Positions 4,027 to 21,620 of a stretch of DNA of 64,000 bases are shown piece after piece. Below the pieces are notes generated by a model. The model was not told the DNA's origin. It was given only the letters and a program-made list of their open reading frames with translations, and ran no database searches. The first letter of the stretch is position 1, and each line of letters opens with the position of its first letter. Source of the DNA: a bacterium BMS3Abin02 (lineage in GTDB: Bacteria; Actinomycetota; Acidimicrobiia; Spongiisociales; UBA4744); the NCBI GenBank assembly GCA_002897675.1, contig BDSU01000045.1:87282-151281 (forward strand), given 5' to 3'. The position numbers were made by a program, and so were the translations under genes.

Positions 4027-5469
4027 TCAACCTGGGAGCAGATGGACGAGTTGCCAGGCTCCGATGAGTGGTTGAGCCACTACGCCAACGAGGATGACAC
4101 CGGCGGCTGTGACCACGACCGTGGCGGCGGGGCGCCAATCCAAGACGGGTTGCGCTGCGAGGTGCTTGTCGATGTAGGCAGGGGCGATGACACGCAGGTA
4201 GTAGAAGAGGGAGATCGCCGAGTTGATCACGGTGACGACGGCGAGCCATGTGTAACCGGCGTCGATCACAGCACCCATGAGCAGCAGTTTCGCCGCGAAA
4301 CCACCCAGAGGGGGTATCCCCACGAAGGAGAGAAACCCTATCGCCAAGGCAGCGGCGAGCCAGGGGTGTGGGCCTGCGAGACCCCGGTACGATTCGCGAT
4401 CGGTGAGACCGCGAAGTTGGACGACCACACCGAACACTGCAATCGTCGCGAGGGCGTAGGCGACGAGGAACATGAGCAGGGAAGGGATCGCCAGATCGCT
4501 GCGGCCGAGGGCCACGATGGCCAGGAGCCCGTATCCTGCCTGTGAGACCGCCGACCAACCCAGCAGCCTTCGCACATCGGTCTGCCAGAGGGCCGCGAGG
4601 TTCCCCAGGGTCATGGTGGCCGCCGCCAAGATGGCTGTCAGCGGCCGCCATCCAAGCGCGGTATCAGGGATCACCATGACCAGGCGAGCCAGAAACACGA
4701 AGGCACCGATCTTGCCGACGATCATCAGGAATGGAGCCACGGGAGCCGGCGCGCCTTCTGCCACGTCCGGTACCCACGGGTGAACCGGGACGGCGCCCAA
4801 CTTGAAAGCTACGCCGATCATGATGAGACCGAAGCCGACGACGAGGGCGAGAGGATCTGCACCGACGAGACCGGCGCGAAGTCCGGTCAGCGTGGTGGTT
4901 CCGCCGAGTCCGAACAGGAATGCGACACCGTAGAGCGCCGCGCCGTTGGCGAGAGCGCCGAGGAGGAAGTACTTGATCCCGGCCTCGGAGGAGTTTCTCG
5001 ATCGCCGGTGAAACGCAGCCAGAGTGAAGCCGGTCACGGACGAGAGCAACATCGCCACGATGAATTCCATGAGGCTGGAGGCGCCCGCCAAGAGCACTGC
5101 TCCGAGAGTTCCGAAGAGCAGGATCGTGTAGTACTCGCCGTGACGGGCGTCCGACCTGAACCATTCGACCGAGAGGGCCACGGTGAAGATCGTCACGACG
5201 ATCAGCAAGAGGGTCGCCCATCTGCCGACGCCGTCGACGGCGAGTGTGTCGAAGAACGTGAGGCGAGGAGGTCCTGCCAGGTCCCGGCCCGCGAAGAAGC
5301 CGGCCGCGGCGAGTATCAGGGTGGCGAGCGCGCCGATCCACGCCTGGAACCGGCGCGGTGTGAACAGGGCAACCAGGAGGATCGCGATCGCACCTCCGGC
5401 GAGCGTCAACTCGGGGAGAACGTCCCCGAGGAAGCGCACCATCTGGGCACCGATGTCGACTTCAGCCAT
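4027..5469 (-). CDS. nuoN: Complex I-like antiporter subunit NuoN
   Basis: 480-aa polytopic membrane protein (about 14 helices) of the Mrp/complex I antiporter family. KLGAVPVHPWVPDVAEGAP carries the conserved channel lysine and the broken-helix segment, and SLMEFIVAML carries the conserved glutamate. It translocates protons in normal complex I. The start lies one base after the nuoM stop. It is the last gene of the YHS-nuoA-BD-HJKLMN operon. It ends about 108 bp from the convergent FAD gene, and I see no clear terminator there. Confidence 0.93.
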   Translation of the reverse strand: MAEVDIGAQMVRFLGDVLPELTLAGGAIAILLVALFTPRRFQAWIGALATLILAAAGFFAGRDLAGPPRLTFFDTLAVDGVGRWATLLLIVVTIFTVALSVEWFRSDARHGEYYTILLFGTLGAVLLAGASSLMEFIVAMLLSSVTGFTLAAFHRRSRNSSEAGIKYFLLGALANGAALYGVAFLFGLGGTTTLTGLRAGLVGADPLALVVGFGLIMIGVAFKLGAVPVHPWVPDVAEGAPAPVAPFLMIVGKIGAFVFLARLVMVIPDTALGWRPLTAILAAATMTLGNLAALWQTDVRRLLGWSAVSQAGYGLLAIVALGRSDLAIPSLLMFLVAYALATIAVFGVVVQLRGLTDRESYRGLAGPHPWLAAALAIGFLSFVGIPPLGGFAAKLLLMGAVIDAGYTWLAVVTVINSAISLFYYLRVIAPAYIDKHLAAQPVLDWRPAATVVVTAAGVILVGVVAQPLIGAWQLVHLLPG

Positions 5470-5470
5470 G

Positions 5471-6946
5471 TCAACCGCCCACGATGGCTTGGCTGAGTGA
5501 GTTGACCACGTTGACCAGCCATGCAGGAGCTATCCCGATGACGACGACGAGCACGAGAGCCGGGGTGAGCGCGACGATTTCCGACCATCCGAGGTCCGTC
5601 CAGCCCGTCCAGCGTTCCGGCAGCGGACCGAGGAAGACCTGCTGCAACATCCTCAGGAACAGCGCGGCAGTGAGGACGATCCCGAGGAGGCCGATTGCCG
5701 CCAGCCACGGGAACACGCCGAGGGTGCCGGCGAAGATCTGGAACTCGGCGACGAATCCGGCAAGGCCTGGCAGCCCCAGGCTCGCGAAAGCTGCGAGCAT
5801 CATCGCTCCGGTGAGTGCCGGTGCCCGAGACGCGAGTCCTCCGAATTCCCCCATCTCATACGTGCGACCGCGGGCGAGTATCGAACCCGACAGGAGGAAC
5901 ATGCTGCCGGTGATGAGACCGTGGGCGACCATCTCCACGGTGGCCCCGGTCAGCGCGAGGGACCGGGCGGAGTCCGCTCCGACGAATGCCGCGCCGACCG
6001 ACACACCGAGAATGACGTAGCCCATGTGGTTGACCGACGTGTAGGCAATGAGCCGTTTCAGGTTGGTCTGAGCCATGGCGACCAGCGCTCCATACACGAT
6101 GCTGACAACCGCGATGACACCAAGGGGGAAGGCAAACCTGTCGAAGGTGCCGGGCATCATCTGGAGAAGTACGCGGATGAACCCGTACGTCCCCATCTTC
6201 AGCAGTACGCCGGCGAGGATCGCGGAGGCGGGTGCCGGGGCGTCGACATGGGCGGGAGGAAGCCAGGTGTGGAACGGCACCAGTGGCGCCTTGATGGCGA
6301 AGCCGAGAGCGATCGCCCAGAAGATGAGTGTCGAGGCAAGCCCCGCAGCCGGGAGTGGCTGGGTGCGGATGATCTCGATCATGTCGAATGTGCGGGGCGA
6401 CGTGTTCAGGTAGATGCCGAGAATGCCAAGCAACAATGCCAGGGATCCGACGAGCGTGTAGAGGAAGAACTTGAGCGCAGAACGCTGCGCGTCGCCGTGT
6501 CCCCAGATGCCGATGAGGAAGTACATTCCCACCAGTGAGAGGTCGAAGAACACGAAGAAGAGGATCAGATCCAAGGCGAGAAAGAGGCCCAGTGAAGCCG
6601 TCTCGAGGAAGAGGAAGGCCGCGTAGTACTGGCGGGCCTTGCCGCGCAGGTCGGCTGGGAAGATCATCGAGATGGTGAACAGCAGCGCCGACATCGCCAG
6701 CAGCGGCAAGGAGAGGCCGTCGATGCCGACCTGATAGGTCACTCCGATCGACGTGATCCACGGAGCCGATTCGATGAGTTGGAAACCGATTCCGCCCTTG
6801 AACATGGTCCACGCCGCGACGATGATGCCCAGTGGCACGAGGCTCACTGCCACAGCCGTCCAGCGGGCGAGCTGGGGTCGATCCTTCGGGAAAGCGAGCA
6901 GGGCTGCTGCTGCGATCACGGGAAGGAAGATGGCGATACTGAGCAT
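5471..6946 (-). CDS. nuoM: Complex I-like antiporter subunit NuoM
   Basis: 491-aa antiporter-like subunit. KAPLVPFHTWLPPAHVDAP holds the channel lysine and broken helix. FVFFDLSLVGMYFLIGIWG matches the region around the essential helix-5 glutamate of NuoM, but the acidic residue is Asp rather than Glu. Length is normal for NuoM. It begins 4 bp after the nuoL stop and ends one base before nuoN. Confidence 0.93.
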   Translation of the reverse strand: MLSIAIFLPVIAAAALLAFPKDRPQLARWTAVAVSLVPLGIIVAAWTMFKGGIGFQLIESAPWITSIGVTYQVGIDGLSLPLLAMSALLFTISMIFPADLRGKARQYYAAFLFLETASLGLFLALDLILFFVFFDLSLVGMYFLIGIWGHGDAQRSALKFFLYTLVGSLALLLGILGIYLNTSPRTFDMIEIIRTQPLPAAGLASTLIFWAIALGFAIKAPLVPFHTWLPPAHVDAPAPASAILAGVLLKMGTYGFIRVLLQMMPGTFDRFAFPLGVIAVVSIVYGALVAMAQTNLKRLIAYTSVNHMGYVILGVSVGAAFVGADSARSLALTGATVEMVAHGLITGSMFLLSGSILARGRTYEMGEFGGLASRAPALTGAMMLAAFASLGLPGLAGFVAEFQIFAGTLGVFPWLAAIGLLGIVLTAALFLRMLQQVFLGPLPERWTGWTDLGWSEIVALTPALVLVVVIGIAPAWLVNVVNSLSQAIVGG

Positions 6947-6950
6947 TGTT

Positions 6951-8867
6951 CTACCTCCAGAGAACGGTCACGAAGACGATGAGTGCGGCGCCGATCACAA
7001 GGATCGTGTAGTAGTGGTAGGACATGCCGGTTTGGAGCTTTCGACTCTTCTCGCCGGCGATGCCGATTCCGAGGGCGATCCCTTCGACGGTGCCGTCGAC
7101 GGCGTCATCGTCCACGAGTCGTGATGTGTCTGCCGTGCGCAGTACGCCACCGGCCGTTACGTGCACGACGCCATCGATGACGCGTTCTGCTCTCCTCCGC
7201 AAGGCGGCCGACACGGCGCCGACGGTGCGAGCGGTGCCCAGCACGAGCGCGTCCACGACGGAGCGGTCTGTGAATCCGAGGCCCTTGGACAGGCGGAGCA
7301 CCGGGTCGACGATGACGACCCGTCCCGCGGTCGGCAGACCCCACCAGTCGGCCACTCTGGCACGGAGACGATCGGGAATCCCGAGGTCGACGAGCCGTCG
7401 GTATTTCCAGAGGACGGCGACGGTCGCCAGCCCGAGAGCGATGCTTCCCAGGGATGCCCACAGTTCCCATGGTTTTCCTCCGGCGAGGCGGCCCGACGTC
7501 ACTGTCTCCAGAAGGCTCTCTCCGCCAGGAAGCCACAGTGCACCGAGGAGCAACGTGATCGTGGCGAGTGTGCCGAGCGCAAGCAGCTCGCCGGCTCCCG
7601 GACGTTCGCCCTTGGTCCGGGTGGAGCCGGGTCCGTAACCGAGCATGTGGAGGCGACTCGCGTACAGGGCGGACAGGAGTCCGGCCACCACCGTTCCTGC
7701 TCCGACCCAGACGCCGGTGTCGAAGGCCGCTGCGAGGACGGTTTCTTTGGTGAAGGCGCCGCCCAGCGGTGGGATGGCGGCCAACGCAGCCGTACCGATA
7801 CCGAACAGGATCGCCACCTTCGGCAAGGCGGAGCCGAGGCGGAGCTTGCCGAGATCCAGCGTGCCTCCCGTGTGAAGTGCCACGCCCGCACCGAGGAACA
7901 GGAGCGCTTTGAAGAAGGCGTGCGCTGTGAGCTGCCCCATGCCGGCTGCGGTGAAACCGGCGCCGATCGCTATCAGCATCAAGCCGTACTGGGCGGACGT
8001 CGAGCCGGCCAGCGCTTTCTTGAAGTCGGTCTGGATGAGTGCCACGACGCCGCCGGCCAGCGCAGTGACCAGACCAAGTCCGATGACGGTCGGCGGGAAC
8101 CACGGGACTTGCGAGAAGATCGGCTGAAGCCGGATGAGTGCATAGGCACCCGCTGCGACCATCGTCGCCGAGTGCAGCAGTGCCGACACCGGAGAGGGTC
8201 CGGCCATCGCCGAGAACAACCAGGGAGAGAAGGGAACCTGGGCGGACTTCGCTGCGGCCGCCACGAGCACCCCGCCGGCGGCGACGGCCATCCAGCGGGG
8301 GTCGGATGAAACGGCGAGGTCGGCGTACCGAAAGCTGCCTGTCGCTGCGAAGGCGGCACCGGCAGCCACGTACAGCCCCAGGTCCCCGAAGCGCGTTGTG
8401 ATGAATGCCTCTTTCGCCAAACGGGGGCGGTTCGGGTCGCGCCATTCGTGACCGATGAGCGACCAGGACGCCGCACCGACCAGTTCCCATCCGATGAGCA
8501 AGGTCAGGAAATCGGCGGCGATCACCAGCAGCTCCATCGCACCGACGAAGGCGACCATGAGCCCAAGGAGGCGGGCGAGCGCGGGATCTCGGCGGAGGCT
8601 GGCCGCGGTGAAACCCACGATCGGCAGCGCCACCAACGGCACGAGCACCACCATGAGACGGGCGGCGCCTTCGACGGACAGTTCGAGCGCGATACCTGCA
8701 CCCCAGTCCCAGGATGCCGTCGAACTCGCGACCGCCGCCAGCACGGCGGCTGCGAGTGCCCCTGCGAGTGCGACGAGGGCGATGGGGCCGAGGAGTCTGC
8801 GCCGCCGTCGAAGCAGGAACACGATGGCGGCACCTGCTACCGGCACGAAGACTGGCAACCAGGCCAT
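6951..8867 (-). CDS. nuoL: Complex I-like antiporter subunit NuoL
   Basis: 638-aa distal antiporter-like subunit. IGWELVGAASWSLIGHEW has the conserved glutamate, KSAQVPFSPWLFSAMAGPSP the channel lysine, and HAFFKALLFLGAGVALH the downstream Lys/His helix. The extra C-terminal part fits the lateral helix of NuoL. The start at 8867 is set by an ATGA overlap with the nuoK stop; the frame upstream of it only shadows nuoK. All channel residues I can place are kept, so the membrane arm looks competent for ion translocation. Confidence 0.93.
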   Translation of the reverse strand: MAWLPVFVPVAGAAIVFLLRRRRRLLGPIALVALAGALAAAVLAAVASSTASWDWGAGIALELSVEGAARLMVVLVPLVALPIVGFTAASLRRDPALARLLGLMVAFVGAMELLVIAADFLTLLIGWELVGAASWSLIGHEWRDPNRPRLAKEAFITTRFGDLGLYVAAGAAFAATGSFRYADLAVSSDPRWMAVAAGGVLVAAAAKSAQVPFSPWLFSAMAGPSPVSALLHSATMVAAGAYALIRLQPIFSQVPWFPPTVIGLGLVTALAGGVVALIQTDFKKALAGSTSAQYGLMLIAIGAGFTAAGMGQLTAHAFFKALLFLGAGVALHTGGTLDLGKLRLGSALPKVAILFGIGTAALAAIPPLGGAFTKETVLAAAFDTGVWVGAGTVVAGLLSALYASRLHMLGYGPGSTRTKGERPGAGELLALGTLATITLLLGALWLPGGESLLETVTSGRLAGGKPWELWASLGSIALGLATVAVLWKYRRLVDLGIPDRLRARVADWWGLPTAGRVVIVDPVLRLSKGLGFTDRSVVDALVLGTARTVGAVSAALRRRAERVIDGVVHVTAGGVLRTADTSRLVDDDAVDGTVEGIALGIGIAGEKSRKLQTGMSYHYYTILVIGAALIVFVTVLWR

Positions 8868-9172
8868 CAGTTTCGAAGCCTCTTCAGCTTCTCGGTGATG
8901 TCGGCTTTCCGTGCCCTGTACACGTTCGCCACCAGCGCGAAGCCGATCGCCGCCTCGATGGCCATGGCCGTCATGACCACGATCACGAGGAGTTGCCCCT
9001 CCGGGTTGCCGCCTGTGGAACCCCACCAGAAGGCCACGACGGCCAAGATGGTGGCGTTCAGCATCAGCTCGAGTCCCATCATGATCATGACGAAGGACTG
9101 CTGACTGAGGGCACCGTAGATACCGACGCCGAAGATGGCGGCCGCCACGACGAGGAGTGCTTCGAGGCTCAT
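8867..9172 (-). CDS. nuoK: Complex I-like subunit NuoK
   Basis: 101 aa, three membrane helices. Both membrane glutamates of the family are visible, in MMGLELMLNA and AMAIEAAIGF. Its start overlaps the nuoJ stop and its stop overlaps the nuoL start (ATGA), showing tight translational coupling. Normal length for NuoK. Confidence 0.93.
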   Translation of the reverse strand: MSLEALLVVAAAIFGVGIYGALSQQSFVMIMMGLELMLNATILAVVAFWWGSTGGNPEGQLLVIVVMTAMAIEAAIGFALVANVYRARKADITEKLKRLRN

Positions 9173-9729
9173 CGGCCCACCCCTACTTCGAGTGGGGGCT
9201 CTTCAGAGCCCTGATCGGCGTCGCCGTACCGTCCGCGATAGGAAACGAGAGCGATCGCTCCGATCATGACGGCGAGGAGCGCCACGCCGGCAGATTCGAA
9301 CACCAACATCGATGGCCCGAGGAGTTCCTGGCCAAGGGGAACGATGGGCGGCCCGACGATATTTGCCGGGCGATCCGGGAAATTGGCGAAGAGGCCGACG
9401 GCGGCCAGCGCAAGGAACGAGCCCACGCCCGAGAGGATTGCCGTGCGGTGCTGGTGCACCATGAGCATCGGGTTCAGACCGGCCGGGTTCATCATGAACA
9501 TCACCATGAAGATGGCCATGATGGTCATCTCCCCGGCCATCATCAGGATGAGGATGAGGCCGAGGAATTGCGCATTGAGGGTGACGAGGATGGCTCCGAC
9601 GGCCACGAACGACGCCATCAACCAGTAGGCCGCCCGCACCATCGAGTCGGTGACGAACACGAGGATCGCCGTGATCACGGCCATCGCCGAGAACGCCCAA
9701 AAGAGCACGTCGAGCCATCCGATGCTCAC
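9169..9729 (-). CDS. nuoJ: Complex I-like subunit NuoJ
   Basis: 186 aa with five predicted membrane helices. GTG at 9729 is chosen because it overlaps the nuoH stop as GTGA and puts the first helix at the N-terminus; the longer frame is antisense to nothing useful and lies inside nuoH. The helix-3 region, usually with a conserved tyrosine and small residues, reads LILILMMAGEMTIMAIF here, so the usual tyrosine is replaced and a glutamate appears. This is the helix that flips during normal complex I turnover, so the change fits a non-standard machine. Confidence 0.88.
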   Translation of the reverse strand: MSIGWLDVLFWAFSAMAVITAILVFVTDSMVRAAYWLMASFVAVGAILVTLNAQFLGLILILMMAGEMTIMAIFMVMFMMNPAGLNPMLMVHQHRTAILSGVGSFLALAAVGLFANFPDRPANIVGPPIVPLGQELLGPSMLVFESAGVALLAVMIGAIALVSYRGRYGDADQGSEEPPLEVGVGR

Positions 9730-10646
9730 AGCGTCAACGCTCCTGACACGAAGACGTCCACGAGCGCCAGGGGCAGGAGTACCAGCCAGCCGAACTTCAC
9801 CACGTTCTCCATTCTCGGTCGAGCGGTCTGATGGCCGAACCAGATCATGACGGTCAGCAGGGCGACCGTCTTGAGAATCGACCATGCCCAGCCGGGGAGC
9901 CAAGGACCGAGGGGGCCACCCAGGAATGCGGCCGATCCCATGACGGCGGCCGACACGAGGAGTGCGGCTCTCGCCGTCCGCCACGCGAGCAGTGCCGTTC
10001 CCGACGTTTCCGCCTGTGAGCCACCTGCGAGGTCGACGGCGTCAGGATGGTGGAAGGGTCCCCAGAACGTGAATCCGAGTGCAGTGAGGAGGTAGATGGG
10101 AAGGCCGAGCGGCTGGCGGAGCACGTTCCAGAGCTCCGCCTGGGAGCCGATGATCACCCCAACGGAGAGGGATTCCGCGGGTATGGCCGTTGTAATGAGC
10201 ACGAGGGAGAAGGGGATTCCCATGGAGAGGGCCAATGCTGCAAACCGATAGCCGCCGATCACCGAAAAGATCGAGTTCGCCGACCATCCGTGCAGGAAGA
10301 CCGCCACCATCACCTGTACGAGGGCGGCACCGAAGAGGACGATGCCGACGGGCACGTCGGCGATGGCGAGCCCCGGGGTGAGGGGGATCGCGGTGAAGGC
10401 GACGGCGGCGAGACCGGCGAGCAAGGCCGGCGCCAGCGCCCAGGCCTCCCGGTCGGGCCGTTCGGTGACGGTCCTGCGTTGTGACATGAGGAGCGCAACG
10501 CTGCGGAAGGGGTCGAGGAGGAGGCGACCGACGCGCTCGGGGCTTCGGGCGGTGATGCCGGCAAAGAGACGATCGAGCACCGAGACGATGTACACGCCGC
10601 CGGTGAGGACTCCGCCCGTGAAGAGAATTGCAGCTCCCGGATTCAC
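9726..10646 (-). CDS. nuoH: Divergent complex I-like subunit NuoH
   Basis: 306 aa, about eight membrane helices. ERVGRLLLDPFRSVAL corresponds to the RVGPxGLLQPxADxxKL segment of NuoH, and VVKFGWLVLLPLALV to its last helix. Departures are marked: GGYRFAALALSMGIPFSL has Gly-Ile where typical NuoH has the functional Glu of (S/T)xE, and the acidic FDxxEAE loop reads HHPDAVDLAGGSQAE. GTG at 10646 overlaps the stop of the B/D fusion. In complex I this subunit lines the quinone tunnel; the losses match loss of quinone residues in the neighbouring fusion. Confidence 0.85.
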   Translation of the reverse strand: MNPGAAILFTGGVLTGGVYIVSVLDRLFAGITARSPERVGRLLLDPFRSVALLMSQRRTVTERPDREAWALAPALLAGLAAVAFTAIPLTPGLAIADVPVGIVLFGAALVQVMVAVFLHGWSANSIFSVIGGYRFAALALSMGIPFSLVLITTAIPAESLSVGVIIGSQAELWNVLRQPLGLPIYLLTALGFTFWGPFHHPDAVDLAGGSQAETSGTALLAWRTARAALLVSAAVMGSAAFLGGPLGPWLPGWAWSILKTVALLTVMIWFGHQTARPRMENVVKFGWLVLLPLALVDVFVSGALTL

Positions 10647-11935
10647 GCAGCGTCCTCTTCGTCGGTGTCTGGGGTGCCTGCGATCGCCTCGGCGGGGTCC
10701 ACATCGAGGCTCGCCAGACAGGTTACGGCGTCTCCCCACTCCAGACCGGTCAGGAGGGCGGGCAGGAGCTCGAGCATCCGGCTCGAGGGCGTTGGTGCTC
10801 CTTCTTCCAGCCGTCCGCGGGGTCCTTCGACGACGCCCTCGCCGAAGGCGCGTCGATCTCTGCCTTGCGTGACGAGCTCGAGAGATTGTGTGATCTCTGC
10901 GAGCCTCTGTCTCCAGCGAGAACGAGGATCGCCGCCGTCGAACGTGATGGGTGAGAAACCGAGGCTTCGGTAGGTGGGGTCCTCCAACCTGGCATCGTCG
11001 GGACGGCCGCCTGCTCTGGCGACGGGACCGAGGCCCCCCGTCAATGATGGATCGACGCGGCCTGCCGAACCGAGTCCCCAGGCGAAGGCACCGCTTCTTC
11101 GGACCGTGCGAGCCATCGCGTCGACGGCGTCACCGTCTTGTGGCGTCAGTCGTTCGGCGAGTCGTAGGGCCCGGAGTCCCGCGGCTCCGAGCCCCTGGAG
11201 ACGCAGCGCCTCGGCCAGCCATCTGAGATGGTGCCGGGCGCGGGCCAATTCGACGTCGGCGATGGGGACCGGGCGGTCCAGGGCTTCTCTGAACGGGGGG
11301 GCGATGGCGGCGGTCACCGTGGTCGGGCCTACAGAGGCCTCCTGGATGATGTCGCCTTGGAAGGTCACACGCAGCGTCAATCCTGCCGGGAACGCAGGAA
11401 GCCACGGTCCCAACGTCACCGGAAGGCGGTCGAGTTGGATGCCATCCCGGTCTGGCCCGCGTTCGGCCATCGGGCGCCCATAGGGGACACCTCCGGTCAT
11501 GCCCTTGCCGCCCTGACCGTACGGTCCGACGTTTCGCCACTCGGCCGGTTCGACGTCCGGTAGCAGTGGCTCTTCGGAGCGAAGCATGCCATGGAGGAGA
11601 GCGCCGTGGAGCTTCACGATGGTGTCGACGAGTTCATCGATGTCTCCGGAAACGACGTGTTCTCCGGGAAGACCTTCGCGTGTGGTCGCGCCCCACTGGA
11701 CGGTCAGGCGAGGGGGTGACATCTGGTCGTGGACGCGACGGAGGGCAGCCACACCCGCATCCGTGAACGTTCCTGCCACCAACAGGATGTTCGCGGGCCG
11801 GGGTGTGTCCAGCATGCTGATCTCGTTTCGCAGGCGTAGCTTCTGCACGTCGTCGCGTGCGCCGGTCCCTCCCACGGCGAATACGGGAACGCGAGCTCGG
11901 GCGGCGGCGCCGGTCAAGAGACCCCTCAGGCCCAT
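10643..11935 (-). CDS. NuoB-NuoD-like fusion lacking Fe-S and quinone-site residues
   Basis: 430-aa soluble protein in the place of NuoB, C, D and I. Residues about 15-125 follow NuoB: PANILLVAGTFTDAG, then RRVHDQMSPPRLTVQWG, then HGALLHGMLRS, where NuoB has its cluster-binding CC, C and PGCPP motifs. None of these cysteines is present; the only Cys is residue 406. Residues about 168-355 follow NuoD: LGPWLPAFPAGLTL sits where GPQHPSTHG normally is, and LTGGLGPVARAGGRPDD plus RWRQRLAEITQSLELV match NuoD's later motifs. So it lacks cluster N2 and the quinone His. The last 75 residues are an unrecognised acidic tail. Start ATG overlaps the nuoA end by 10 bp. Confidence 0.78.
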   Translation of the reverse strand: MGLRGLLTGAAARARVPVFAVGGTGARDDVQKLRLRNEISMLDTPRPANILLVAGTFTDAGVAALRRVHDQMSPPRLTVQWGATTREGLPGEHVVSGDIDELVDTIVKLHGALLHGMLRSEEPLLPDVEPAEWRNVGPYGQGGKGMTGGVPYGRPMAERGPDRDGIQLDRLPVTLGPWLPAFPAGLTLRVTFQGDIIQEASVGPTTVTAAIAPPFREALDRPVPIADVELARARHHLRWLAEALRLQGLGAAGLRALRLAERLTPQDGDAVDAMARTVRRSGAFAWGLGSAGRVDPSLTGGLGPVARAGGRPDDARLEDPTYRSLGFSPITFDGGDPRSRWRQRLAEITQSLELVTQGRDRRAFGEGVVEGPRGRLEEGAPTPSSRMLELLPALLTGLEWGDAVTCLASLDVDPAEAIAGTPDTDEEDAA

Positions 11936-12279
11936 TCGAACCCTCGTTCCCGCCAGGCGTACACGATCCCTACGACCAGGATCAGGATGAACATCAGCAT
12001 CTCGACCAGCGAGACGAGTCCCTCCTTTACGAACACGACTGCCCACGGGTACATGAAGACCATCTCCATGTCGAAAGCCAGGAACAGCAAGGCCATCGCG
12101 TAGTAGCGGATGTGGAACCGGTTCCACGCGTGGAAATCCGGTTCCACACCCCCGGCGGATGGAACGCGCTCGGGTGCGGTCGTCAGCACGGGGTTGAGCC
12201 GATCGCCCACCCATCGGGTGCTGACGACGGCAAGCCCGGCTGCCAGGAACACCACGAGCGCAGCTCCGAGAGACGCCAT
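11926..12279 (-). CDS. nuoA: Complex I-like subunit NuoA
   Basis: 117 aa, three membrane helices. WNRFHIRYYAMALLFLAFDM and EMVFMYPWAVVF are strongly conserved NuoA segments, with the Asp and Glu kept. The loop normally reading ECGxEP is SAGGVEP here, so the conserved loop cysteine is gone. Starts one base after the YHS gene stop and overlaps the B/D fusion, so it belongs to the same operon. Confidence 0.92.
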   Translation of the reverse strand: MASLGAALVVFLAAGLAVVSTRWVGDRLNPVLTTAPERVPSAGGVEPDFHAWNRFHIRYYAMALLFLAFDMEMVFMYPWAVVFVKEGLVSLVEMLMFILILVVGIVYAWRERGFEWA

Positions 12280-12280
12280 G

Positions 12281-12427
12281 TCAGGCTGTGTAGTCTTCGG
12301 GGTTCTCGTCGAACTCTTCTTTGCAGTCGTTCGAGCAGAAGTAGTAGGTCTTGTCGTCGTGTACGCTCGTACCGACGGCGTCGTCCATTTCGATGGTCAT
12401 CCCGCAGACCGGGTCTGTCGCTTTCAT
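12281..12427 (-). CDS. YHS-domain protein, 48 aa
   Basis: A complete 48-aa YHS domain. It opens with KATDPVCGMTIEM and continues TYYFCSNDCKEEFDENPEDY, the DPVCGM...YYFCSxxCxxxFxxxPxxY pattern. YHS domains occur in metal chaperones, P-type ATPases and metal sensor proteins; the Cys residues probably bind a metal such as copper. GGAGGAG precedes the ATG. It is the first gene of the complex I-like operon and ends one base before nuoA. A metal-delivery or metal-sensing role for the operon is inference. Confidence 0.85.
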   Translation of the reverse strand: MKATDPVCGMTIEMDDAVGTSVHDDKTYYFCSNDCKEEFDENPEDYTA

Positions 12428-14692: not shown

Positions 14693-15160
14693 TCACGCTC
14701 CATGGGTGTGGCGTGCCGGCCGCTTGTGGACGTGCCGGGAGGCCGTGGCCCCTTTGACCGACTCGTGATGAATGATGGTCTGACAACGGTTGGGGTCCGT
14801 GCACTTGGACGGGTCGAGGTTCCGAGCATGCTCGGCCAATTCGGCGAGTTGTCGTCGGGTTTTCTTCAGAGCCTTGATGTGAGCGTCCAAGTCGTGCATG
14901 TGGCGCTCGAGTAGATCGAGCACGTGGTGGCAGGTTGTTTCGCCTTTGTCGCGGAGATCGAGGATCGAGGCGATCTCCGCGAGTGTCAGACCGGTGGCCT
15001 GGGCATCTCTGATGAACAGCAGTCGATCGACGGATCCTTTCTCATAGACACGGTATCCGTTGGGAGCCCGGCGAGGAGCCGGGAGGAGGCCTATGTCCTC
15101 GTAGTACCGGATTGCCTTGGTCGAGACCCTGGCATGCTGGGCGAGTTCTCCGATCTTCAT
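14693..15160 (-). CDS. MerR-family metal-responsive regulator
   Basis: 155 aa. The N-terminal winged helix starts MKIGELAQHARVSTKAIRYY and continues EDIGLLPAPRRAPNGYRVYE, typical MerR. A long dimerisation helix follows. Cys77, Cys120 and Cys126 sit in TTCHHV and DPSKCTDPNRC; a Cys at the position-77 equivalent is typical of sensors of divalent ions (ZntR, CadR, PbrR), while CueR-type sensors have Ser. The His-rich tail HVHKRPARHTHGA may add binding. ATG at 15160 is preferred since MKIGEL is the family start and a TATGAT box lies 12 nt upstream, so the mRNA is probably leaderless. It is the likely activator of promoters A-D. Confidence 0.9.
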   Translation of the reverse strand: MKIGELAQHARVSTKAIRYYEDIGLLPAPRRAPNGYRVYEKGSVDRLLFIRDAQATGLTLAEIASILDLRDKGETTCHHVLDLLERHMHDLDAHIKALKKTRRQLAELAEHARNLDPSKCTDPNRCQTIIHHESVKGATASRHVHKRPARHTHGA

Positions 15161-15420: not shown

Positions 15421-15619
15421 GCCACCGAGCCATCCACCTGGGGCAACTCGGGGGAGTTCGTCAATGTGGCTGCCGGCAAGACCGGCCGAACGGAGTGGGC
15501 CGAGAGGGCCTGTCGAGGTACGCTGTTCGGCGTAGCAGCAAGGTGTCGGTGATCCTGTGTCGCCTCGGGTCGTCGCGAGGGGCGGGCCGGCACATCGGCA
15601 AGAGGGAAGGACGGACGGG

Positions 15620-15973
15620 GTGGCCAGAGAACCCATTCTCGAGAATGCTGTCATGCTGATGCTTTGGCAGGAGGAAGGTCCTCTGACACCGCGTCAGGTG
15701 AAGTCTCGGTTGGACGAGACCCATCCAGTGGCATACACGACGGCGATGACTGTCCTGATGCGATTGTGGAAGAAGGGTCTCCTCCGCCGCTATCGGGTGG
15801 GACGAGCATACGCGTACGCCCCGACCGTGGGTCAGGCCCAGCATGCCGCTCAACGCATGGAAGGGATCCTCAGGGAAGTGAACGAACGGGCAGTCGCGTT
15901 GGGTCGGTTTGTGGAGCGACTTTCGTCGTCGGACCGGGAGGAGCTGATGCGGATTCTGAGTGCCGGTGACTGA
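15620..15973 (+). CDS. blaI: BlaI/MecI/CopY-family transcriptional repressor
   Basis: 117 aa. The winged helix is seen in ILENAVMLMLWQEEGPLTPR, then VAYTTAMTVLMRLWKKGLLRR, the BlaI pattern of YTTVxTxLxRLxxKGLxxR, followed by the C-terminal dimerisation and cleavage helix. GTG at 15620 gives the usual length; the frame upstream has no family match. Its end overlaps the M56 protease gene by 14 bp, the classic blaI-blaR pairing. Probable operators lie on four nearby promoters, so its targets here look like Rieske and cytochrome c maturation genes rather than a beta-lactamase; none is seen in the window. Confidence 0.88.
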   Translation: MAREPILENAVMLMLWQEEGPLTPRQVKSRLDETHPVAYTTAMTVLMRLWKKGLLRRYRVGRAYAYAPTVGQAQHAAQRMEGILREVNERAVALGRFVERLSSSDREELMRILSAGD

Positions 15974-16901
15974 GGTCTTGTTCGCCGCAGCCCTGGCGTT
16001 GCTCGGCGTGCCGCTCTTGTTGAGCCGTTCGGGGCGTCGTATCGGCGCCGCCGAACGTACACGGTTGATGGCCGTATCGCTCGGCGCAGGAGTGGTGTTC
16101 CTCGAGTTGAGTCTTGCGCTCACGGCGTTGCCGACCGTGCTGCGCGTATTCCATCTGAGCGGCCTGGCCTCTGTGTGTGAACGGCTTGTCGGGCCCGTGT
16201 TCGGTGGTGGGCAGATTGTTGGAGGGGTCGCGCTCGTCTTGGCTCTGCTCCTGCCCGCATCGGCGATCATGACAAGTCTGAAGTGTCGGACGCGGCAGGA
16301 GCGTTTGCGGGCCGATCCTTGGGTGGGGACGCATCGGCCGTATGGCAAGCATGAGTTGGTCGTGCTGCCTTCGGCAGCGATGGTGGCGATCAGTGTTCCC
16401 GGCCGGCCCGGGCAGGTGATTCTGTCGCAAGGGCTTCTCGATGCTCTGACACCGGCAGAGTTGGACGCGGTGATTCGGCATGAGGGGGCGCACCTCGATT
16501 TCCGGCACTCGAGGTATCTCCTGCTCGCTGCCGTCGTGCAGTGCACCGTCGGATGGTTCCCGATGGTCCGTAGGTGCGTGTGCTGTCTCCGACTGTCGGT
16601 GGAAGAGTGGGCTGATGCGATTGCGGTTCGAGATCTGGGCACCAGCAGACCTGTCGTAGATGCTTTGCGCTCGTTTGTGTTTGCCTCGCTCTCCCCTCGA
16701 GTGGCTTCATTCTCCGCCGCCGAGACGATCGGCGAACGTCTCGAGGCTCTTGAACATGGCGAACCGCGCAAGGCGCCGCTGGCTCGTCTGATGGCCTATT
16801 CGCTGGTCGTGCTGCTGTCGCTGGGAGCCGGCGGATCCCTGGTGACGTGGGCAGCGCACGCTCGCGAGTTGGCCGCGATGACACCGTATTGTCCTCTCTA
16901 G
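15960..16901 (+). CDS. M56-family BlaR1-like membrane metalloprotease
   Basis: 313 aa. Membrane helices near the N-terminus, at about residues 75-100, mid-protein and at about 275-295. AVIRHEGAHLDFRHSR carries the zinc HExxH (HEGAH), and SVEEWADAIAVRDLG supplies the third-ligand region. There is no penicillin-binding sensor domain, as in Mycobacterium Rv1845c-type proteins, so the inducer is not obviously a beta-lactam. By analogy it would cleave the BlaI-type repressor on receiving a membrane signal. The start GTG at 15960 overlaps blaI; a GTG at 15966 is possible. Confidence 0.85.
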   Translation: MPVTEVLFAAALALLGVPLLLSRSGRRIGAAERTRLMAVSLGAGVVFLELSLALTALPTVLRVFHLSGLASVCERLVGPVFGGGQIVGGVALVLALLLPASAIMTSLKCRTRQERLRADPWVGTHRPYGKHELVVLPSAAMVAISVPGRPGQVILSQGLLDALTPAELDAVIRHEGAHLDFRHSRYLLLAAVVQCTVGWFPMVRRCVCCLRLSVEEWADAIAVRDLGTSRPVVDALRSFVFASLSPRVASFSAAETIGERLEALEHGEPRKAPLARLMAYSLVVLLSLGAGGSLVTWAAHARELAAMTPYCPL

Positions 16902-17170: not shown

Positions 17171-17202
17171 GCTTTTGTCGAGGAGTGAGAGAGGAGGCAA
17201 CG

Positions 17203-17691
17203 GTGAGCGACTCGATCCGTCGACGTACATTCCTTCGCAGGGCGATCACTGTCATTGTCGCCGGAATCGGCGCCGTGTTCGGGGCATCGGCGGTCGCGTA
17301 CGTCGTGCCGTCGAAGCAATCCGACGCACGCGACGAGTGGCTCCCGTTGGGTACGACAAGAACCGTCGAGCTCGGTGAGCCAACCCTGTTCAAGGCTTCG
17401 GTTGAGCTTACGACGGGCTGGAGGACCACGACCGACGATGTAGCCGTCTACGTGAAGACGGACGATGGGCGTGACTTCATCGGCATGTCGAACATCTGTA
17501 CGCATCTGGGATGTCGAGTGCGATGGGTGAAGGATCGGAGACAGTTCTACTGTCCGTGCCATGCCGGCGTCTATGACGAGAACGGAAACGTCGTCTCGGG
17601 TCCGCCGCCGCGCCCGCTGGATCGCTATGAACTCGCCGTGGAAGGCGAGGAGATCGACTTTCTGCCCGATCCGATAAAACAGTCGGGTTGA
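17203..17691 (+). CDS. Second Rieske [2Fe-2S] protein (QcrA-like)
   Basis: 162 aa. CTHLGC and CPCHAGVYD give the cluster ligands. An N-terminal helix (about residues 10-33, after RRRTFLRR, twin-arginine-like) anchors it. GTG at 17203 is used because GAGGAGGCAACG precedes it. It differs clearly from the Rieske at 13726 and has a different promoter type, with a BlaI-like operator over the -10. It sits at the head of the cytochrome c maturation genes, so it may serve a c-type cytochrome-containing bc complex whose cytochrome b is elsewhere, or share the one at 1618. Confidence 0.9.
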   Translation: MSDSIRRRTFLRRAITVIVAGIGAVFGASAVAYVVPSKQSDARDEWLPLGTTRTVELGEPTLFKASVELTTGWRTTTDDVAVYVKTDDGRDFIGMSNICTHLGCRVRWVKDRRQFYCPCHAGVYDENGNVVSGPPPRPLDRYELAVEGEEIDFLPDPIKQSG

Positions 17692-17975
17692 TCTGTGTTC
17701 GATGAGAGGTGCACGGTCGCCGAGATGTGTGTCATGTGTCGCTCGGCAGAGTCCTGGTGTTGTGAAGACGCGCTCCAGGAGGCCATCTCCGGGGAATGAC
17801 CTGTGAAGTCCGCCGGACGAGCGAATGTATGTGGCATCTGACGAGAAGCCGTCCTTGGCCTCATCGACGAAGCCGGCCCGTTGGGTCACGCTCGGCGCAT
17901 GGCGCGTCAGCCGCAGGGGAGGCACGAGAAGGGTTGTAGGGGGAGCTGCCGTCGGCTGAGCCGCCGGGTGTGACG
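17692..17975. other. Intergenic stretch, possible tiny Cys-rich ORF
   Basis: Between Rieske 2 and ccdA. A 24-codon frame at 17725-17799 starts MCVMCRSAESWCCEDAL, with CxxC and CC, but has no clear ribosome site; I do not call it a gene. Nothing else is recognised. Confidence 0.35.
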
Positions 17976-17990
17976 ACTACACTTCGTCGT
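17976..17990 (+). promoter_or_regulatory. BlaI-type operator and -10 before ccdA
   Basis: ACTAC-ACTTC-GTCGT. The -10 TACACT (17978-17983) lies within it, and the ccdA ATG is 16 nt from the -10 start, giving an almost leaderless mRNA. Confidence 0.6.
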
Positions 17991-17993
17991 TGC

Positions 17994-18722
17994 ATGGCAG
18001 ACCTGATACTCCCGGTTCTCGCTTTGATAGCCGGCATCGTCTCCTTCAGTTCTCCATGCAGTCTGCCGCTGATTCCCGGGTATCTGTCATACATGTCGGC
18101 GCTACCGGTCGATGATCTCGGTAATCGTGCCGCGCGGTCGACGATCCTGAAGGCAGCGTTGCTCTTCGTCGGGGGCTTCACCGTCGTGTTCACCGCTCTC
18201 GGGGCGTCATTTGCGCTCGTGGGGTCCCTCTTCTTGAGGAACGTCGATCTCATTACCCGAATAGCGGGTGTCGGGATCATCGTGATGGGACTCGCCATGT
18301 TGGGTGTCCTTCGGATTCCCGGGTATCACCGGGAACTCCGTGTGAACATGACGCGGGCTCCACGAGGGTTGAAGGGAGCTTTCCCAATGGGAATGGCCTT
18401 TGCGGTCGGTTGGACACCATGCATCGGTCCGATTCTCGCCACGATCCTCACAGTGGCAGGCGCAAGCCAGACGGTCGTGTGGGGGGCCGCGCTCCTTGCG
18501 ATCTACTCCCTCGGGTTGGGTATTCCCTTCGTACTGGTGGCACTGGGGTTCCAGCGCGCTCGAGGTTCACTGACGTGGCTGAAGCGGAACGGCAGGCGAG
18601 TGGAGATCGTGGGCGGTTCGATGCTCATCGCGGTCGGGGTGATGTTCACCTCGGGGATCTGGCGGGCCATCTTCATCCCTCTTCAGAGCGCGTTCGCTCG
18701 ACTTGGCTGGCCCCCGATCTGA
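17994..18722 (+). CDS. ccdA: CcdA-family thiol-disulfide transmembrane electron carrier
   Basis: 242 aa, six membrane helices. SSPCSLPLIPGYLSY and GWTPCIGPIL carry the two redox-active cysteines of CcdA/DsbD-beta. It carries electrons from cytoplasmic thioredoxin across the membrane to an extracytoplasmic thioredoxin, here probably the TlpA/ResA-like protein at 21621, to reduce apocytochrome c cysteines. ATG at 17994 is chosen; no ribosome site is visible but a -10 box is 16 nt upstream. First gene of the CcdA-CcmF-CcmH group. Confidence 0.92.
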   Translation: MADLILPVLALIAGIVSFSSPCSLPLIPGYLSYMSALPVDDLGNRAARSTILKAALLFVGGFTVVFTALGASFALVGSLFLRNVDLITRIAGVGIIVMGLAMLGVLRIPGYHRELRVNMTRAPRGLKGAFPMGMAFAVGWTPCIGPILATILTVAGASQTVVWGAALLAIYSLGLGIPFVLVALGFQRARGSLTWLKRNGRRVEIVGGSMLIAVGVMFTSGIWRAIFIPLQSAFARLGWPPI

Positions 18723-18778
18723 GCCATCTCTCCGTGTCGCGTGGGATCCCCGTCAGTTCGGCAGGCCTGGATTCGACT

Positions 18779-18793
18779 ACTACGCTGCGTCGT
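18779..18793 (+). promoter_or_regulatory. BlaI-type operator and -10 before the ccmF unit
   Basis: ACTAC-GCTGC-GTCGT within the near-palindrome TACTACGCTGCGTCGTA. The -10 TACGCT (18781-18786) is inside it; an ATG lies 13 nt from the -10 start. Confidence 0.65.
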
Positions 18794-18874
18794 ATGCAAC
18801 GTTCGGCCGAGTCCGGTGTGTTGAAGTTTTCCAGCACCGGTCTCATGGTCTGTGATCTTCAACGGAGACGGTGA
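18794..18874 (+). CDS. Possible 26-aa leaderless ORF preceding ccmF
   Basis: Reads MQRSAESGVLKFSSTGLMVC followed by DLQRRR. Its ATG is 13 nt after a TACGCT -10 start, the spacing of a leaderless mRNA, and abuts the BlaI-type operator. Its TGA overlaps the next ATG (TGATG). No family match. Function unknown; it may couple translation into ccmF. Confidence 0.4.
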   Translation: MQRSAESGVLKFSSTGLMVCDLQRRR

Positions 18875-18969
18875 TGGCACAACTCATGGGCGCGATGAGA
18901 AGAACTATCGAGGTTGATGAATTCGCTGCAGCGTTTCGGTTTCGACGTAGTGGAGGGCGACGGTCGTGA
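18874..18969 (+). CDS. Possible 31-aa ORF overlapping the ccmF start
   Basis: Begins MAQLMGAMRRTIEVDEFAAA and ends in RFRRSGGRRS. It starts inside the stop of the preceding ORF and ends in a GTGA overlap with ccmF, so it bridges the leaderless start and ccmF. Basic C-terminus. It is too short to be CcmE and no heme-binding His is seen. Could be a coupling ORF only. Confidence 0.4.
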   Translation: MAQLMGAMRRTIEVDEFAAAFRFRRSGGRRS

Positions 18970-21002
18970 CCGCCATCGTCGGCTATCTGGCCATTCTCGT
19001 CTCGCTCGCCTCCGCTGTCTGGCTGGTGGTTGCCGGGTTCCGTGGCATGTTGAGACCCGCGGCAGCAGTCGCGTCGCGGCTGAAGTGGCCCGTGTACGGC
19101 CTCGTCGGTGGTGCCGTGGTTGCGATGGCCAGTCTCGAAGTCGCTCTCCTCAGTGACGACTTTTCGATCAGCTATGTGGCAAACAACTCCACCAGCTCGA
19201 CTCCGCTCCTCTACAAGGCGGCGTCGGCCTGGGGAGCGCTGCAAGGCAGCATCGTTCTGTGGGGCCTGGTTCTGGCAGTGTTCACTCTCACCGTCTACTG
19301 GGGCCTCGCTCGCAGAGAAGGTCCCGATCCTCTCGGTGCGGGCGCGCTGGCTGTGTTGGGCATCGTCTCGATGTACTTCTTCGCGCTCATGGCCAGTATT
19401 TCCAATCCTTTCGCCGTCTGCGTCATGCCTGCTTCGGTCGGCTGTCTTCAGGCCAGCAACGTGCCTTGGGCCACGGCCCGTGCGGCTCTCGAGGGGCGGG
19501 GTCCTAATCCTTTGCTCCAGAATCACCCACTGATGGCCGTCCATCCTCCGACGCTGTATATCGGATACGTAGGGCTGACTGTTCCGTTCGCGTTCGCGAT
19601 GTCTGCACTCATGCGGGGCTCCAGCGGCACAGAGTGGTTGCGCCGGACTCGGTCATGGACGCTGGTCACCTGGATGTTCCTCACTCTGGGCATTGTTGTT
19701 GGTGGGCTCTGGTCCTATGAGGTACTCGGTTGGGGTGGCTTCTGGGCCTGGGATCCGGTGGAGAATGCTTCATTCCTTCCCTGGTTGGTCGCCACGGCCT
19801 TCTTGCACTCCTCGGTGGTGCAGGCGCGTCGCGGCATGTTGCAGGCCTGGAACTTCATTCTCGTCATTGCAGCGTTCGCTCTGACCATCCTCGGTACCTT
19901 CCTCACGCGGTCGGGTGTGATCAACTCGGTTCACGCCTTCAGCCAGTCTCCGATCGGGCCGGCTCTCCTCTGGTTTCTCATGGTCGTGCTGGTGGCGTCG
20001 TTCGGCCTTTTCGCCGCCAGGGTGCACTTGGTCGCCTCGTCTCCACGCCTGGACTCGTTGGCAAGTCGGGAAGGCGTGTTTCTCGGCAACAACCTTCTGC
20101 TGACCGTGTTTGCCTTCATCGTGCTGACGGGGACCCTCTATCCGATGATTGTCGAGGCGATTACCGGTGACAAGGTCGGCGTTGGTCGTCCGTTCTTCGA
20201 CCGTATGGCGATCCCTCTCTCATTTGGGTTGCTGCTGGCCATGGGGATCGGGCCGGTGACGCCCTATCGTGCGGCAAAAGGGTCCGTCGTTTGGGAGCGG
20301 ATTCGCGTCCCGATTCGAGCTGCGTTGGGGGTGACGGCCGTCCTGGTCGTGTTCGGCTATCGCAACCCCTACCTGTTGACGAGTGTCCTCACAGCGACGT
20401 TTGTGATGGCAGTGATCGTTCGATATCTGTTCGTATCGGCGCGCAAAGTCGCGAACCGGCACGAGATGTCGCTTCCTTCCGCGATTCTGCGCGTCATGCG
20501 AAATGATACGAGCTACTGGGGAGGACAGATTTCCCATGTGGGTGTTGCCTTGCTCGCGATCGGCATCGCCTTCTCCGCCAACCTGGCGGTGGACACAAGT
20601 GCAGTCCTGTCTCCCGGAGACACTGTGTCGGTCGCAGGATTCGACCTGACGTACGCTCAGCGCTTCGAGCGGCAGGAACCGAATCGCAGTGTCACGGGCG
20701 CTCGCATCGAAGTCTCGAGAGACGGAAGGTTGGTTTCGGTGCTGGAACCGCGCCTCAACCAATATCCGCAATCTCTCGACTCGGTCGCGACGCCGGATAT
20801 CGATGCGACGCTGCGGGGAGATCTGTATCTGTCGCTGAAGAGCCTCGACGATCAGAAAGTGACCATTCGCGTCTTCTGGTTTCCGCTCATCTGGTTGGTC
20901 TGGGTGGGTGGCTTTGTCATCGCGATCGCGGCTCTGTGGTCCCGGCTCGTCAAGAAACCTGAGCAAGACCGCGCGAATGTGAGGAGGACGGAGAGTGTTT
21001 AG
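18966..21002 (+). CDS. ccmF: Cytochrome c heme lyase subunit CcmF
   Basis: 678 aa, about 15 membrane helices. GWGGFWAWDPVENASFLPW is the tryptophan-rich WWD heme-handling domain, with conserved His residues in the flanking loops (HPPTLYIGY, FLHSSV). It attaches heme to CxxCH apocytochromes with CcmH. GTG at 18966 has GGAGGG upstream and lies in a GTGA overlap with a 31-aa ORF. The stop overlaps ccmH by 8 bp. CcmA, B, C and E are not in the window. Confidence 0.95.
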   Translation: MTAIVGYLAILVSLASAVWLVVAGFRGMLRPAAAVASRLKWPVYGLVGGAVVAMASLEVALLSDDFSISYVANNSTSSTPLLYKAASAWGALQGSIVLWGLVLAVFTLTVYWGLARREGPDPLGAGALAVLGIVSMYFFALMASISNPFAVCVMPASVGCLQASNVPWATARAALEGRGPNPLLQNHPLMAVHPPTLYIGYVGLTVPFAFAMSALMRGSSGTEWLRRTRSWTLVTWMFLTLGIVVGGLWSYEVLGWGGFWAWDPVENASFLPWLVATAFLHSSVVQARRGMLQAWNFILVIAAFALTILGTFLTRSGVINSVHAFSQSPIGPALLWFLMVVLVASFGLFAARVHLVASSPRLDSLASREGVFLGNNLLLTVFAFIVLTGTLYPMIVEAITGDKVGVGRPFFDRMAIPLSFGLLLAMGIGPVTPYRAAKGSVVWERIRVPIRAALGVTAVLVVFGYRNPYLLTSVLTATFVMAVIVRYLFVSARKVANRHEMSLPSAILRVMRNDTSYWGGQISHVGVALLAIGIAFSANLAVDTSAVLSPGDTVSVAGFDLTYAQRFERQEPNRSVTGARIEVSRDGRLVSVLEPRLNQYPQSLDSVATPDIDATLRGDLYLSLKSLDDQKVTIRVFWFPLIWLVWVGGFVIAIAALWSRLVKKPEQDRANVRRTESV

Positions 21003-21396
21003 CTCCAGACTGCCGGGCACGCTTCTGACGTTGCTGTTGGCGGTCGTCGTCATCGTCGGCTTCGCTCTGGGAGATCCGACCCCGGAAAACCGGGCGCTCG
21101 CCATTGGACGCCGGATCATGTGCCCTGTGTGCCAGGGCGAGTCCATCGCCACGTCTCCATCCGAGACTGCCAGAGCGATGATGGACGTCGTGGAGGAAAA
21201 AGTCGCCGCAGGCGAGACCGATGAGCAGATCATCGCGTATTTCGAGGCCGCCTACGGAGAGGCGATCCTGCTCGATCCACCTTTTTCAGGGAAGACGCTG
21301 ATTGTGTGGTTGCTCCCCATTCCGGTCGTTGCGATCGGCATCTGGATGGCCGTCTCTCGACGGCGTCGCGACACGACACCTGTGCACGGGCCGTGA
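20995..21396 (+). CDS. ccmH: Cytochrome c biogenesis protein CcmH
   Basis: 133 aa. An N-terminal helix (residues about 8-26), then RRIMCPVCQGESIATSPSET with the CPVCQ redox motif that handles apocytochrome thiols, and a C-terminal helix (about 103-122). This two-helix CcmH form is normal. GTG start lies inside the ccmF end. Confidence 0.93.
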   Translation: MFSSRLPGTLLTLLLAVVVIVGFALGDPTPENRALAIGRRIMCPVCQGESIATSPSETARAMMDVVEEKVAAGETDEQIIAYFEAAYGEAILLDPPFSGKTLIVWLLPIPVVAIGIWMAVSRRRRDTTPVHGP

Positions 21397-21528
21397 AGGC
21401 ACGACGCTCCCGCCTGGGGGAGCGCGCGGGCTGGTGGGAGGAGGACTGTCGAAACCGTGTCGGGCGGGAATGGCGGCGTGGACCCATGGGGTGATCCCCT
21501 TTTCGGTTCGGCGCAGAGGCAGTCTGCT

Positions 21529-21543
21529 ACTACGATCTGTAGG
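21529..21543 (+). promoter_or_regulatory. BlaI-type operator and -10 before tlpA
   Basis: ACTAC-GATCT-GTAGG. The -10 TACGAT (21531-21536) is inside it at the same offset as at 17978 and 18781. The leader to the ATG is about 75 nt. Confidence 0.6.
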
Positions 21544-21620
21544 ACATTGAAGGAACGGGACCCGCAAGACGTGAACCGTTGCGGACCTTATCCGCACCTG
21601 TGGCTCGTCGAGGGAGATCC

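Follow-up and report, generated by a model that had tools for sequence, protein, structure and literature searches.

Antiporter-like subunits work without redox chemistry in the Mrp-type Na+/H+ antiporters. In respiratory complex I, the E-channel is built from NuoA, NuoJ, NuoK and a part of NuoH (PMC10212512). The third transmembrane helix (TM3) of NuoJ is a hinge whose tyrosine meets the central axis, and the loop between TM3 and TM4 meets the TM1-2 loop of NuoA at the Q cavity (PMC10212512). The Ehr and Mbx-type hydrogenase-related complexes are complex I relatives in which catalytic residues of the large subunit have been lost (PMC6349859). Marinobacter atlanticus has been reported to have a co-expressed nuoADHJKL cassette inside a copper operon, for which copper redox was suggested as the energy source (PMC8233155, 2021). 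In the HME-RND copper exporter CusA, a methionine ladder is thought to be the route of Cu(I) (PMC7558416).

The operon described here was found in a stretch of 64,000 nucleotides (the window) of contig BDSU01000045.1 from the bacterium BMS3Abin02. With respiratory complex I it shares homologous A, B, D, H, J, K, L, M and N subunits, their order A-B-D-H-J-K-L-M-N, and the Lys/Glu/His paths of the antiporter subunits. It differs in that B and D are fused (BD), C, E, F, G and I are absent, there are no Fe-S ligands or quinone motif, Tyr59 of NuoJ has become Met, a methionine ladder is present in A, J and K, and a glutamate of NuoN has been lost. Mrp antiporters have neither a NuoH/A/J-type E-channel with a BD cap nor a methionine ladder. 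With CusA the likeness would be one of working principle only, a proton-driven Cu(I) path along a methionine ladder (PMC7558416); CusA has another fold and is a trimer of a single polypeptide.

Lost catalytic-site residues of the large subunit are shared with Ehr and Mbx. These come from group 4 hydrogenases, whereas the window complex has NuoA and a BD closest to NuoD and NuoB. On fold and gene content, the complex falls outside Ehr: NuoA is present, and the top fold matches are to NuoD and not to hydrogenase large subunits. An Ehr or hydrogenase origin is disfavored by this and by the profile matches to NuoD and NuoB. Unlike Ehr, the window complex has no conserved oxidoreductase partner genes among the called neighbors. 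What the Marinobacter cassette shares is its complex I-like character and a place among copper resistance genes, with which that cassette is co-expressed. Compared by its description, it differs in lacking M and N and in being explained by copper redox, and the accessible text makes no mention of redox-site loss or methionines (PMC8233155). The two are likely the same system. No other report of a copper-linked complex I cassette was found in a literature search that left most subscription journals outside its coverage.

A complex I-like operon with a fused BD subunit

The operon A-BD-H-J-K-L-M-N lies on the minus strand from 12279 to 4027, and its neighboring genes overlap or are 1-4 nt apart. 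A YHS-domain ORF precedes nuoA, which gives the tight minus-strand array YHS-A-BD-H-J-K-L-M-N:

12281 to 12427, minus strand: YHS-domain ORF of 48 amino acids (Cys metal-binding type; Pfam YHS 5.7e-12), 1 nt upstream of nuoA
11926 to 12279, minus strand: NuoA-like subunit (Pfam Oxidored_q4 3.1e-26), with Met71, Met73, Met76 and His56 gained and the loop Glu and Cys lost
10643 to 11935, minus strand: NuoB-NuoD fusion (BD) of 430 amino acids, with its ATG at 11935 and its stop ending at 10643, without Fe-S cysteines and without HPxxHG
9726 to 10646, minus strand: NuoH-like subunit (Pfam NADHdh 3.5e-43), with E. coli E228 kept, E241 replaced by Arg and D63 lost
9169 to 9729, minus strand: NuoJ-like subunit with the methionine ladder (Pfam Oxidored_q3 3.1e-20)
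8867 to 9172, minus strand: NuoK-like subunit (Pfam Oxidored_q2 1.1e-17), with Met29 and Met70 invariant and Glu35 and Glu73 kept
6951 to 8867, minus strand: NuoL-like antiporter subunit (Pfam), with the Glu/Lys/His ion path intact
5471 to 6946, minus strand: NuoM-like antiporter subunit (Pfam), with Asp135 in place of Glu
4027 to 5469, minus strand: NuoN-like antiporter subunit (Pfam), with the TM5 Glu lost (Leu141) and the lysines kept

Pfam matches cover all seven membrane subunits and BD, which places each of them in the complex I superfamily by homology. Genes C, E, F, G and I are missing from the window operon and likewise from the operons of its relatives. This gene content, with one 430-aa protein standing in place of B, C, D and I, is what a preliminary description of the sequence had reported. 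The limits it gave for BD were also right, and the strand is minus. YHS-like ORFs lie directly upstream of nuoA at loci L018, L027/L101, L038/L086, L073 and L082 as well.

BD is a NuoB-NuoD fusion, with a likeness to both proteins far beyond chance. When a profile of 49 BD sequences was compared with profiles of 17 canonical NuoB and 17 canonical NuoD sequences from the same phylum, NuoB was matched at E 1.7e-8 and NuoD at E 2.7e-20 over residues 162-414. Pfam gave Complex1_49kDa at 6.7e-8 and a weak 20-kDa domain, and phmmer against PDB chains gave NuoB (1.8e-5) and NuoD (0.007). The AlphaFold2 model of BD has a pLDDT of 90.4, and its top Foldseek matches are NuoD chains of complex I (E 3.9e-9). 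The preliminary description had read the protein as NuoB followed by NuoD and had suggested comparing it with both by profile and fold. Profiles, Pfam and fold uphold that reading: both proteins were matched by profile, and NuoD also by AlphaFold2 and Foldseek.

The redox sites have been lost from BD. All four N2 Fe-S cysteines (CC, C, PGCPP), invariant in the 17 canonical NuoB sequences, are missing, as is the quinone motif HPxxHG, which is invariant in canonical NuoD (GPQHPxTHG has become GPWLPAFPAG). Both losses had been noticed beforehand and hold against the canonical sets. The BD sequence evolves faster than the membrane subunits of the same operons. Its most conserved stretch is the following:

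11471 to 11545, minus strand: inter-domain linker of BD, EWRNVGPYGQGGKGMTGGVPYGRP, conserved yet predicted to be disordered (pLDDT about 45)

At the linker position (GPYGQGGKGMTGGVPYGRP in the window BD), the BD proteins of Rubrobacter and alphaproteobacteria carry a heavy-metal-binding domain (HMBD; match at 9.5e-15) followed by His/Met-rich runs. The window's own BD subfamily has neither the HMBD nor the His-rich linker. A short BD subfamily of about 345-370 aa was also seen (L035, L112, L114-L118), in which the BD profile matches only to about residue 297; several of its members have CsoR, ArsR or CopY-type regulators upstream of nuoA.

Retained ion paths and gained methionines

For each membrane subunit, residues were compared in an alignment of 57-74 relatives and 19-23 canonical proteins. 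The antiporter paths are kept in NuoL, NuoM and most of NuoN. In E. coli numbering, NuoL retains E144, K229, H254, K342 and K399, NuoM retains K234, K265, H348 and E407, and NuoK retains E36 and E72. E144 of NuoM is mostly Asp (Asp135 in the window). NuoN retains its lysines and has lost its TM5 Glu, E. coli E133 being Leu in 47 of 57 sequences. The TM5 Glu and the TM7/8/12 Lys/Glu that mark the antiporter subunits of complex I are kept in NuoL and NuoM, with Asp for Glu in most NuoM; the exception is the TM5 Glu of NuoN.

The E-channel glutamates and the NuoJ TM3 Tyr of complex I were not found as a complete set, since Tyr59 of NuoJ is Met in 71 of 72 relatives and E241 of NuoH is Arg. NuoH has also lost D63, and its E157 is Gly in the window; the E228 equivalent is kept in 73 of 74. 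NuoA retains D79 and E81 of E. coli (D70 and E72 in the window) and has lost its loop Cys and Glu. These results largely agree with the preliminary description, which had listed the NuoA loop Cys and the NuoJ helix-3 Tyr as lost and NuoM as having Asp for Glu. Two of its statements need narrowing. The loss of the conserved Glu from NuoH applies to E241 and E157 but not to E228, and the retention of channel Lys and Glu in L, N and K applies to L, K and the NuoN lysines but not to the NuoN TM5 Glu. It had also missed that the Met in place of the NuoJ Tyr is part of a methionine ladder:

9454 to 9573, minus strand: NuoJ TM3 and TM3-4 loop, with Met63, 64, 68, 71, 75, 79, 80, 88 and 90, Glu67 and His92 near-invariant in 72 relatives and absent in 20 canonical sequences
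12052 to 12069, minus strand: core of NuoA TM2, DMEMVFM, with Met71, Met73 and Met76 around the retained D70 and E72

Met occupies 11 of the 21 near-invariant columns of NuoJ, in an alignment whose sequences share as little as 27% identity (binomial 1.8e-7 even with the Met rate of the family itself as background). These are residues 30, 63, 64 (the equivalent of E. coli Tyr59), 68, 71, 75, 79, 80, 88, 90 and 141; Glu67 and His92 are gained as well. NuoJ TM3 comprises residues 53-77 in the AlphaFold2 prediction, and on a helical wheel M64, M68, M71, M75 and M79 fall inside an arc of 80 degrees, on the helix face that Tyr59 occupied. In NuoA, Met71 is present in 69 of 72 relatives and Met73 and Met76 in all 72, where canonical proteins have V, A or L; His56 is an invariant gain (72 relatives against 19 canonical sequences). 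NuoK has Met29 and Met70 in all 70 relatives and Met31 in 66 of them.

Met content in relatives compared with canonical proteins is 8.2 vs 2.6% for NuoJ, 5.8 vs 2.2% for NuoA and 8.4 vs 4.3% for NuoK. This is a 2-3 fold rise. As an internal control, the H, L, M and N subunits encoded in these operons show no such increase. The Met gain is confined to A, J and K, the three small E-channel subunits, and the E-channel has thus acquired soft-metal ligands. Judged from the structure of the E-channel and Q cavity in complex I, homology puts the new Met and His residues around the former Q cavity and along the former E-channel. A continuous Met path may, by the same homology, run through the assembled complex.

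Distribution and copper neighborhood

With a limit of E 1e-8, BD was detected in 9 genomes out of 138 in the order and in 11 out of 395 in the class. A profile search detected it in 36 of 397 genomes from the phylum at E up to 1e-15, and in 4 of 151 from the Chloroflexota. A single-sequence scan of genome contigs with BD gave no match, and an alignment-based scan gave 40 loci on 40 named contigs. The operon is present in Actinomycetota, Chloroflexota and Pseudomonadota, and at loci with enough sequence its genes stand in the order A-BD-H-J-K-L-M-N, for which the preliminary description had proposed to look. It is often on plasmids, whose hosts are Halomonas, Roseovarius, Roseivivax, Sulfitobacter, Paracoccus, Thioclava, Nitratireductor, Acuticoccus, Arthrobacter FB24, Rhodococcus, Rubrobacter and Mycobacterium. 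In a NuoH+NuoM tree, all 56 sequences from such operons lie on one side of a branch with 100% SH-aLRT and make up a single clade. Plasmids of Mycobacterium avium, M. intracellulare and M. paragordonae encode a NuoJ of the same type. Two copies of the operon occur in one genome at L033 and L034, and likewise at L025 and L024. Further M- and N-like fragments lie past the operon at L096:17466-19974, possibly a partial tandem duplication.

The host genome has a full nuo cluster on contig C24, including E, F, G and I and with its own membrane arm; whether such a cluster existed had been raised earlier. A second cluster on C46 (L004), A-B-C-D-H-I-J-K-L-M-N without E/F/G, also has its own membrane arm. 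Because of these clusters, NADH oxidation is independent of the window operon.

The copper link of the operon family is strong. CsoR lies within 10 kb of the operon at 18 of 40 loci, against 0.54 expected from the genome-wide CsoR count, and at 4 of 24 loci outside Rubrobacteraceae, against 0.28 expected; because the genomes are related, the Poisson tails serve only as an indication. Among genes called around 72 loci, P1B-ATPases are near 29, CsoR near 16 and multicopper oxidases near 10, with ArsR, MerR and CopY-type regulators and YHS ORFs near others. Outside Rubrobacteraceae, P1B-ATPases within 10 kb show a modest, weakly significant excess (3 seen, 0.61 expected), and the copper claim therefore does not rest on them. 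The recurrent neighbors are CsoR, CueR, CopA, CopZ and multicopper oxidase. A Pfam tally of 123 neighbors at non-Rubrobacter loci gave P1B-ATPase, HMA, CsoR, CopY-type repressor, multicopper oxidase, CopD and MerR amid many unrelated genes.

Of the 11 plasmid loci whose annotation could be used, 8 have copper or heavy-metal genes close by (Halomonas, Arthrobacter, Rubrobacter tropicus, M. paragordonae, Nitratireductor, Acuticoccus, Roseovarius and Roseivivax). Of the other three, Rhodococcus has a CopY/M56 pair, and Paracoccus and Thioclava have none within range. In Rubrobacter tropicus, CopA-CsoR-CopZ-nuoA-BD-HJKLMN all run in one direction. CueR and a P-type ATPase are directly downstream of the operon in Roseivivax, CueR is about 1 kb upstream in Acuticoccus, and a multicopper oxidase is directly upstream in Arthrobacter. 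Halomonas has copABCD, Roseovarius copAB and Nitratireductor a copper oxidase/CopD nearby. In M. paragordonae, ArsR and a metal P-type ATPase come after the operon.

Some lineages show strong copper synteny. In the lineage of the window it is diffuse, and the nearest metal genes there, the YHS ORF and those below, are less copper-specific than those of relatives:

14693 to 15160, minus strand: MerR-family metalloregulator of CadR-PbrR/CueR type, a possible regulator (NCBIfam CadR-PbrR 2.2e-31 and CueR 4.4e-26, below curated cut-offs)
15557 to 16901, plus strand: pair of a CopY/BlaI-type regulator and an M56/M48-type peptidase, also near the operon at other loci
25030 to 28222, minus strand: heavy-metal island with a P1B-type ATPase (Zn/Cd family), a CDF transporter and an ArsR/SmtB regulator, 13-16 kb from the operon

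Rieske, CcdA, CcmF, CcmH and thioredoxin-like genes are found at 17185-22301 (plus strand), and cytochrome c biogenesis genes recur near several operon relatives. Just before a two-component system, at 22661-23095 (plus strand), is a small protein with repeated Met/His-rich motifs (DEMHDSVW, DEMHASMW, DEMHESMW) and no Pfam family.

Proposed function and alternatives

The operon may encode a complex I-derived complex without redox chemistry that handles a soft metal, most likely Cu(I), as a cofactor-free, gradient-driven translocator; we are evenly divided on this reading. Slightly more tentative, at just under an even chance, is its specific form, in which the Q chamber and E-channel have been rebuilt as a methionine-lined Cu(I) path powered by the three antiporter-like subunits. 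The complex would then be a secondary-active copper transporter spread on plasmids across phyla. The near-invariant Met residues of NuoJ TM3, NuoA TM2 and NuoK would suit the working principle of a Cu(I) ladder.

We infer transport, its direction and its coupling as follows. Cu(I) from the cytoplasm, delivered by CopZ or the BD linker, would enter the former quinone chamber, move stepwise up the methionine ladder through the former E-channel and exit on the outer side. Entry of H+ (or Na+) through L/M/N/K would drive the cycle, with NuoJ TM3 acting as a moving gate as in complex I. The net result would be gradient-driven Cu(I) export, for detoxification or for supply to extracytoplasmic copper proteins. 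Export is preferred because of the metal-binding additions on the cytoplasmic BD and the resistance genes among the neighbors. Counting against it, CopA is already encoded at many loci, where the need for a second exporter would have to be explained.

Another possible explanation, though an unlikely one, is a copper-gated ion channel or antiporter. Cu(I) bound to the methionines and the BD linker would open or close H+/Na+ flow through L/M/N, guarding pH or membrane potential under metal stress, and no metal would cross. Retained ion-path residues, absent redox parts, metal ligands and copper neighbors all fit such a channel, and the homologous Mrp complexes are cation antiporters. However, the Met residues span all of NuoJ TM3 and continue into NuoA, NuoK and the loops, which exceeds what one sensing site needs.

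We consider it rather improbable that the complex imports copper or supplies it for cuproenzyme maturation instead of exporting it for detoxification. CcdA, CcmF/CcmH and thioredoxin-like genes are found repeatedly around several of the loci, that of the window among them, and copper oxidases and cupredoxins are nearby. The neighbors are mostly resistance genes (CsoR/CueR with CopA/CopZ), however, and it is the cytoplasmic BD that bears the metal-binding domain and the His/Met runs, as export predicts.

The chance is small that the membrane arm pumps ions with electrons from Cu(I) as the driving force, as proposed for the Marinobacter cassette from co-localization and co-expression (PMC8233155). 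The BD family has neither Fe-S ligands nor HPxxHG and so no evident electron path or acceptor, and Met favors copper staying as Cu(I).

The preliminary description had suggested that the membrane arm still moves ions and that its driver, or what it gates, is perhaps the cytochrome b, Rieske and FAD proteins encoded next to it. The first part of this stands: the arm is decoupled from NADH:quinone chemistry and keeps the residues of the ion path in L, M, K and most of N. The second part is very improbable and was rejected. In the window such genes border the operon, as FAD and Rieske genes do elsewhere in its genus, but this synteny is not conserved outside the genus, and a cytochrome b relative is near only 4 of 72 loci. 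The recurrent partners in three phyla are copper and metal genes, and the gained residues are metal ligands. A decaying, functionless nuo duplicate would explain the many lost complex I residues and is dismissed, since the operon is intact and its new residues are invariant across three phyla and on plasmids.

Because the redox parts are lost, a row of Met is conserved and copper-resistance genes recur, the complex probably moves copper ions and not electrons. If it does transport copper, it would be the first complex I machine put to this use. Such genes are currently annotated as NADH-quinone oxidoreductase or hypothetical protein, and they would represent a widespread copper-resistance system, carried on plasmids by marine and soil hosts and by mycobacteria. 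It has long been asked how a reaction in the Q cavity of complex I is coupled to ions moving 100-200 angstroms away. A natural version with the redox input gone and a metal path instead would part the E-channel and antiporter machine from quinone chemistry, and coupling could then be tested with a simple ionic substrate.
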